Shown here one piece after another: positions 15,530-43,907 of a stretch of 64,000 bases of DNA. Position 1 is the first letter of the stretch; each line of letters begins with the position of its first letter. The stretch comes from Gilliamella bombi (GTDB lineage Bacteria; Pseudomonadota; Gammaproteobacteria; Enterobacterales; Orbaceae), in NCBI RefSeq assembly GCF_900103255.1, contig NZ_FMWS01000017.1, forward strand, positions 1 through 64,000, written 5' to 3'. The notes under the pieces are model-generated. The model was given only the letters and a program-made list of their open reading frames with translations. It was not told where the DNA came from and ran no database searches. Position numbers and translations under genes: made by a program.

Positions 15530-15571
15530 TTGATGTATATCAATTTTATTCTGTGATTATCGGTGTATAAT
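15530..15571 (+). promoter_or_regulatory. FNR-dependent class II promoter of cydAB
   Basis: TTGATGTATATCAA (15530-15543) is a perfect match to the FNR consensus TTGAT-N4-ATCAA. A perfect -10 box, TATAAT, lies at 15566-15571. A start site seven bases further would put the centre of the FNR box at about -41.5, the exact position of class II activation. No good -35 box is present, as expected of an activator-dependent promoter. In E. coli FNR represses cydAB and ArcA activates it, so this geometry suggests a different logic. Confidence 0.75.
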
Positions 15572-33430: not shown

Positions 33431-34120
33431 TTAAAATATATCTTTTATAATAAGTACAACGCGTCCAACAATATGATATTTATGAAAGTCTACTTTAGGT
33501 ACTTCAATAGTCGGATATTGGCTATTATTGCAGATTAACAACCATCCATTGAGAGTTAAACGAATCTTTCTCAAAAAGGTAATATCTTCATATTCAATTA
33601 AATAGATTGCACCATCAATAATCTCATTTATTTCTGTATTAAGAATTAATCCGTTATTATTTTTGATTTCTGGCGACATTAAATCGCCTTTAGCCCAGTA
33701 TATAATTAATTTTTTAGCATCCAAACCTCGATGCTTAACCCAACCTTCAACAATAGGATAATTCATTACTGGAGGCGTTTCTCTAACAAAACGCTCTTTT
33801 TGTGCTTCTTCTTTTGTTGGTAACTGTTTTTTATATACAGGGATACGATAAATATTTTCGTTATAGACTTCTTCACTGTCTTTAGGATCTAATACTTCTA
33901 ATTTATGTCCAGTAGCAAGCCAATTAAAGGAAACATTACATTTTTCAGCAATAACTTCTAAACGTGTAAGTGATGGATATGTTTTACCAGATAAATAATC
34001 TCGGATTACTGTTTCTGACATATCACATTTTTTAGCGAAGGCCGATACAGATAAACCTTGCATTGAGCTATATAGTCTATCTTTAAAAGTTTTAATATTA
34101 TTATTTTTAATTGTATTCAT
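33431..34120 (-). CDS. CI/LexA-like repressor, HTH plus S24 domain
   Basis: A 229-residue regulator with an N-terminal XRE helix-turn-helix (LSVSAFAKKCDMSETVIRDYL, residues about 23-44) and a C-terminal S24 peptidase-like domain. In active members the cleavage serine sits in a GDSM motif; here it reads AKGDLMSPEI, with Leu147 (codon TTA, one base from the serine codon TCA). The catalytic lysine, normally in a VKR context, falls at LRKI, so it may also be shifted or lost. The predicted protein could bind DNA but not cleave itself. There are no other phage genes around it. It lies next to an AT-rich region with an FNR box. Confidence 0.8.
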   Translation of the reverse strand: MNTIKNNNIKTFKDRLYSSMQGLSVSAFAKKCDMSETVIRDYLSGKTYPSLTRLEVIAEKCNVSFNWLATGHKLEVLDPKDSEEVYNENIYRIPVYKKQLPTKEEAQKERFVRETPPVMNYPIVEGWVKHRGLDAKKLIIYWAKGDLMSPEIKNNNGLILNTEINEIIDGAIYLIEYEDITFLRKIRLTLNGWLLICNNSQYPTIEVPKVDFHKYHIVGRVVLIIKDIF

Positions 34121-34400
34121 CTTTGAACCATTATTTCTTGCATAAGTTTATTAATTATAATGTATTTTTTTTGTTTTTGTATACGTTAATAACATTGAAA
34201 ATCTATTAGTTTGGTTTTATTCCTATGCTAATTTGTTTTTTTATTTTATATCTTGTTTTTTTATCTTGTTTTTTCATTTTTTTATAGTTGTTGATTTTTT
34301 TTTGGAAAAAAACTATTCATTATTTTTTTCTGCTTGAGAATGCGTATTTTTGTGCTAAAAAATTTATTACTGTGTTAATTAAAAGTTTTTTATTGTTTAT

Positions 34401-34414
34401 TTGATATTTATCAA
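34401..34414. promoter_or_regulatory. FNR box
   Basis: TTGATATTTATCAA is a perfect TTGAT-N4-ATCAA palindrome. If it acts as a class II activator site, transcription would start near 34449, and AT-rich -10 candidates (TATATC or TATGAT at 34437-34450) are present. The nearest annotated gene on the + strand is tatA, over 300 bases away and behind a terminator. Confidence 0.65.
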
Positions 34415-34448
34415 AGGTATCTTAATGGTGGTTTTTTATATCATTATG

Positions 34449-34625
34449 ATTTTATTTGATTTATATTTTTATGTGGAAATAATTTAAATTGAAAAAATAA
34501 ATAAAAACGTTGACGAAAGCGAAAAAAAATGGATAATAAGCAGGGTAAGGATTTTTCATTGTTTTCTTTCCTTATATTCCTTATATTTCATGTTGGCCTG
34601 TATAGTTTTATACAGGTCTTTTTTT
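34449..34625 (+). ncRNA. Candidate FNR-regulated small RNA
   Basis: This is the predicted transcript between the FNR-controlled start and a strong terminator. The terminator is CCTGTATA / TATACAGG with loop GTTT at 34597-34616, followed by TCTTTTTTTATTTTT. No + strand gene ends within 3 kb upstream, so the terminator needs a local transcript. The interior has a C/U-rich single-stranded stretch (34562-34588), as in Hfq-dependent RNAs. It is not recognisably homologous to E. coli FnrS, but the layout (FNR site, about 170 bases, terminator) is the same. A short membrane-peptide mRNA is the alternative. Confidence 0.5.
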
Positions 34626-34738
34626 ATTTTTGAACTATTCATGAAATCCCTTCACAAAAAGAGTATAATCAGTTTCCTATAGAATCTGTTTTAAAGCTTA
34701 TCCTAACAGAGCGTTGTATTTATTGAGAGGATTTGATT

Positions 34739-34918
34739 ATGTCTTTTAGCATTCCACATCTTTTAGTGTTTCTTGCCGTAGTGATTTTATTATTTGGCAC
34801 TAAGAAGTTACGTAATTTAGGTTCGGATCTTGGTTTAGCGTTGAAGGGCTTTAAAAAAGCGATGAATGATGACGAAGTTGAATCAAAAAGTGATAATAAG
34901 TTAGATGATAATAAATAG
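34739..34918 (+). CDS. tatA: Twin-arginine translocase subunit TatA/TatE
   Basis: A 59-residue protein with one N-terminal helix ([16 protein letters not shown], about 5-20), then the conserved hinge [14 protein letters not shown] and amphipathic helix [10 protein letters not shown], followed by a short acidic tail. This is the TatA/TatE pattern; the length is closer to TatE. TatA oligomers form the transient pore for folded proteins. The ATG at 34739, eight bases after GAGAGG, fits better than the TTG at 34733. tatB and tatC do not follow; ubiI does. Confidence 0.9.
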
Positions 34919-43732: not shown

Positions 43733-43907
43733 CAAACCATGAAGCGCTCCACCTGTTAAGGTGACAACCCAAGGGATTCAGCCCTTGCAGTCGATTTAAT
43801 TACTTCTGGATGAGTAATCAAACCTCGGCATTACGTCCCCTCGATCATTTATTAGTGGTTCCAGTCCCTAAAATGACTTACCTGAGTAATGCGCCTCTTC
43901 GTTTTGC
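43733..43907 (-). promoter_or_regulatory. Lysine riboswitch (L box)
   Basis: The leader of lysC matches the L-box aptamer in order: GAAGAGGCGC at the 5' side, GGGACTGGA, GAGGGGACGTAATGCCGAGG, CGACTGCAAGGGCTGAATCC, then TTGGGTTGTCACC and the closing GGTGGAGCGCTTCATGG. P1 is formed by GAAG at the 5' edge and CUUC at the 3' edge. No intrinsic terminator lies in the 74 bases before lysC, so control is probably translational, with the GAGGA site being masked, as known for E. coli lysC. Confidence 0.95.

Follow-up and report, generated by a model that had tools for sequence, protein, structure and literature searches.

A predicted small-RNA gene upstream of tatA in Gilliamella, with siblings complementary to translation start sites

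FnrS is a small RNA of Escherichia coli that is activated by FNR/ArcA. Small RNAs that occur as siblings are also known, among them NmsRA/B of Neisseria, OmrA/B and Qrr (PMC4211561, PMC5362039), and for the NmsRs an antisense mode of action and anti-Shine-Dalgarno motifs have been described (PMC5362039). In the open-access literature, no report of the RNA described below was found, nor any study of small RNAs in Gilliamella or elsewhere in the Orbaceae. The locus lies within a stretch of 64,000 nt from Gilliamella bombi (the window), for which a preliminary description had proposed an anaerobic RNA of about 175 nt, built on the plan of FnrS and started by class II FNR activation near position 34449.

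To compare the locus across the genus, the sequence between positions 34381 and 34920 was used as the query against the 34 other Gilliamella genomes, and the locus was found in each of them. The RNA and its terminator were present in all 35 genomes (the source genome and the 34 others), which strongly supports the proposal of a small RNA with an intrinsic terminator; a lone box and a lone terminator in AT-rich DNA are weak evidence, whereas the cross-genome comparison makes it strong. The conserved block extended from 34499 to 34631 and contained a promoter-to-terminator unit (34510-34626), which consisted in the 35 genomes of a sigma70-type promoter, an invariant stretch of 48 nt and a terminator hairpin. 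The -35 element TTGACG (34510-34515, + strand) and the -10 element GATAAT (34532-34537, + strand; spacer of 16 bases) together matched the sigma70 consensus at 10 of 12 positions. TTGAC was kept in every species compared. All 34 complete loci shared GATAAT and the spacer length, whereas the bases of the spacer drifted, indicating that the region has been conserved as a promoter and not as a coding frame. From the position of the -10 element, the 5' end of the RNA was inferred to lie at 34543-34546. The 48-nt stretch (UAAGGAUUUUUCAUUGUUUUCUUUCCUUAUAUUCCUUAUAUUUCAUGUU, from 34546 on) was identical across 34 species, whereas the flanks fell to 75-90% and in some of the species scarcely aligned. 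The predicted RNA is therefore about 82 nt long instead of 175 nt, and covariance model R1 matched it at 34545-34626 (+ strand) in the window.

Folding of the predicted RNA was far better than that of shuffled sequences (z -5.1). The RNAalifold consensus showed a 5' hairpin (34545-34575, + strand; stem GUAAGGA/UCCUUAU) with a 17-nt loop that presents the anti-start-codon sequence UUUUCAUUGUUUUCU; the stem barely varies, so covariation cannot test it. The single-stranded linker that follows (34576-34594, + strand) is predicted to be unpaired, is invariant and carries a second anti-Shine-Dalgarno motif, AUUCCUUAUAUUUCAUGUU. The strong terminator noticed in the preliminary description was recovered as the hairpin GGCCTGTATAGTTTTATACAGGTC followed by a T (U) run at 34595-34625 (+ strand). 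In the RNAalifold alignment, three of its pairs were changed on both sides (for example, U-A to C-G), and 10 double-changed cells were counted versus 3.1 in shuffles.

The next gene downstream is a second copy of tatA (34739-34918, + strand; Pfam TatA_B_E), which is preceded by a conserved promoter-like site (34641-34669) including the -10 element TATAAT at 34664-34669. Because tatA has its own conserved -10 element past the terminator, read-through from the RNA into tatA appears unlikely. This tatA copy is genus-specific and distinct from the tatA-like copies that other genera have at the usual site. Upstream, no long + strand gene was found between 31298 and tatA, in agreement with the earlier observation that none lies within 3 kb. 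Elsewhere in the window, the - strand carries a lysine riboswitch at 43734-43907 (RF00168 in Rfam; score of 84 bits). Taken together, the conserved promoter, the invariant core, the paired changes in the terminator, the folding and the separate tatA promoter point to an undescribed small-RNA gene at this Gilliamella locus, with a predicted product of about 82 nt.

When reverse-complemented, the invariant 5' part of the RNA reads UAAGGAAAGAAAACAAUGAAAAA, a complete translation start region. A U run at the 3' end and a U-rich single-stranded part were present, as in Hfq-dependent antisense RNAs, and the genome contains an hfq gene. This start-site mimicry, together with the terminal U run and the presence of hfq, suggests that the RNA most likely acts as an Hfq-type antisense repressor of translation. 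Transcription from its own sigma70 promoter would give an RNA composed of the 5' hairpin, the U/C-rich single-stranded linker and the intrinsic terminator; it would bind Hfq and base-pair with the Shine-Dalgarno sequence and AUG of several mRNAs, by which ribosome binding would be blocked. The production of certain proteins would probably be switched off in this way.

Target scoring covered 409 gene starts, from the window and from one 400-kb stretch of one relative, and the background duplex energy was about -14 kcal/mol (means of -13.6 and -14.5). The start regions of the OprD-type porin (Pfam PF03573) reached a mean of -20.1 kcal/mol over 26 orthologs, and this porin is the best conserved target candidate; no target with strictly conserved pairing was found in the scoring. 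Genes with signal peptides paired slightly better than the others, a weak effect (p 0.07; difference of -1.0 versus +0.45, sd 0.5, for shuffled RNAs). Since any RNA with anti-Shine-Dalgarno and anti-AUG parts pairs above average with start regions, the target signal is weak. The strongest single match, uxaC (-30, in one species), was rejected as its pairing was lost in orthologs.

Two further RNAs were traced in the same genomes through weak second matches with 73-74% identity to the RNA at the tatA locus (RNA 1), and the source genome carries copies of this sibling group at C105, C42 and C22. All the siblings have in common UUUCAUUGUUUU, which in one genus reads UUCAUUGUUUU or UUCAUUGUUUC, and after it a UUCCUU motif that occurs once or twice. 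Together these form the complement of a Shine-Dalgarno sequence plus AUG start site. The siblings have different promoters and terminators. RNA 2, located between trmA and a response regulator gene of the heavy-metal (copper/silver) family, was present in at least 32 of the 35 Gilliamella genomes as well as in other Orbaceae genera, and was nearly invariant among 25 aligned copies. It is divergent to the response regulator gene (L112:2850-3110; G000:C42, ~65.85-66.1 kb), and the region between the two contains conserved AATGAC...TGTAAT and GTCATTAA motifs, which may be boxes of this regulator. RNA 3 adjoins two genes, one for a PfkB-family kinase and one that is hemW-like (named from reading the translations); a scan with model R2 of nine Gilliamella genomes and three from other Orbaceae genera found it in eight and two of them, respectively. 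Its terminator varies between genera, yet the pairing is always kept. The Orbaceae genome G315 has three RNA 3 copies with three different terminators (L173, L174), and in G082 a CRISPR array (Rfam CRISPR-DR4, L176:903-1470) directly follows an RNA 3 copy.

Folding placed the anti-AUG part of RNA 1 in the loop of the 5' hairpin; in RNAs 2 and 3 this part was locked in a stem and the anti-Shine-Dalgarno part was free. When the 35 genomes were searched for a 23-mer perfect start-site complement, only RNA 1 and sibling 2 recurred. The ubiB-tatA site of other Orbaceae genera lacked the RNA, so the copy at the tatA locus is specific to Gilliamella, and no convincing sibling was found outside the Orbaceae in about 190 genomes from the order. 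We consider it probable that the locus encodes an independent small RNA of about 82 nt with its own sigma70 promoter, which serves as an antisense blocker of translation starts and is one of at least three siblings. With at least three such RNAs per genome, different promoters combined with a common pairing motif could allow different signals to act on overlapping targets. More tentatively, the three or more start-site-complement siblings in Orbaceae might each respond to an input of its own, namely oxygen sensed by FNR, a two-component system of the metal type, or a further signal, and converge on shared mRNAs for envelope or sugar-uptake functions.

The perfect TTGAT-N4-ATCAA palindrome noticed at 34401 was confirmed as TTGATATTTATCAA (34401-34414). 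The window contained two perfect sites of this type, at 34401 and 15530, and 11 sites with at most one mismatch versus 8.2 expected. Upstream of the RNA, a box with at most one mismatch was detected in 26 of 34 loci, against 3.4% in shuffles, and a perfect box in 10 of 34, against 0.03%. An FNR-like protein is encoded in the genome; it has CxxC...C plus one more cysteine, making four, and the recognition motif ETVSR (ETxSR), and its best NCBIfam match was the Fnr model at 204 bits, below the cut-off of 228 bits. cydA is a classical FNR target, and a cydA-like gene, itself preceded by a sucD-like gene, starts 80 bases after the second perfect box, TTGATGTATATCAA (15530-15543). The conservation beyond chance, the encoded FNR and the other box before the cydA-like gene indicate that the box is probably real. 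Given the conservation of the box and an encoded FNR that has the four cysteines and ETxSR, anaerobic control of RNA 1 is plausible; the box may couple the RNA to oxygen, and for FNR control, whether direct or indirect, we estimate a little less than an even chance.

The conserved box, the encoded FNR and the box before the cydA-like gene would also favor the originally proposed class II FNR promoter near 34449, giving a transcript of about 175 nt, either as the sole product or as a longer, anaerobically made version of the same RNA that shares the terminator. However, the region 34415-34498 was poorly conserved across the genus, the distance from box to RNA varied among loci (132.5-196.5 nt), no -10 element at a fixed class II distance from the box was conserved across loci, and the box was weak or missing in several genomes with an intact RNA (G015, G016, G020, G014, G026 and others). 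A transcript of this kind is consequently unlikely. Nor is FNR likely to activate the conserved promoter directly, in class I or class II fashion, since the box is distant and variable in position, has no fixed -10 element and is missing in several species. Alternatives for the box are a further anaerobic transcript of greater length, action by looping or repression, or the control of something else.

On the other side of the RNA, an XRE/S24 regulator gene (33431-34120, - strand; Pfam HTH_3 and Peptidase_S24) is divergently oriented with its own promoter. It had been described as an inactive-looking repressor and, consistent with this, its catalytic Ser is replaced by Leu, with GDLM instead of GDSM in 32 of 33 orthologs. 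The palindrome might be the operator of this regulator and not an FNR box, the regulator then controlling the small RNA, as the regulator gene adjoins the RNA in 33 of 34 loci and the one genome without it also lacks the box. Nevertheless, the box was lost in three species with an identical helix-turn-helix, the promoter of the regulator itself is more than 200 bases away, and the site fits the consensus for FNR, including the flanking T/A that many species have, which makes this explanation improbable. A small-protein gene in the conserved block, on the + strand (MDNKQGK...) or the - strand (MKNPYPAYYPFFF...), was rejected as very improbable: in the window neither frame is interrupted and the - frame follows a good Shine-Dalgarno sequence, but third codon positions were no less invariant than the others, some species had ACG, GTG or AGG as the + start codon, the - frame stopped after 5, 12 or 14 codons in several species, and the terminator falls within the + frame.

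The predicted ~82-nt RNA and its siblings form a group that extends across the family, is not represented in Rfam and shows 48 invariant nt within a genus, and they present a natural case in which sibling RNAs diverge in promoter and structure while the pairing motif is kept. Gilliamella and other Orbaceae are core bee-gut symbionts, and these RNAs offer an immediate, testable entry to post-transcriptional control there.

In comparison with the described systems, RNA 1 resembles FnrS in its short length, intrinsic terminator, pyrimidine-rich pairing region and upstream FNR box. In contrast to FnrS, the spacing between its box and the conserved RNA does not fit class II, its sequence and neighbors differ, and no covariance match was obtained at the gathering score or even at E 10; the Rfam search of RNA 1 matched no family, and none of the siblings reached an Rfam cut-off. 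The preliminary description was right in seeing no clear homology to FnrS, whereas FnrS as the closest analogue was not borne out. The presence of several related RNAs per genome is shared with NmsRA/B, OmrA/B and Qrr. The NmsRs, however, are in tandem and controlled by RelA, whereas the Gilliamella siblings have unrelated promoters at separate loci; the NmsR model RF02877 gave no match on RNA 1, and on one sibling the NmsRb model reached 24.9 bits (cut-off 52). In size, U/C-rich anti-start-site part and terminator, the RNA is similar to CyaR and ChiX, which are enterobacterial and porin-targeting, although the CyaR model scored 16.7 bits (cut-off 47) and ChiX gave no covariance match. The OprD-type porin as a candidate target recalls ChiX-chiP. 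By the tests made, the RNA does not belong to FnrS, NmsR or CyaR; it appears to represent a new family within the known kind of antisense sibling RNAs and would work like them.
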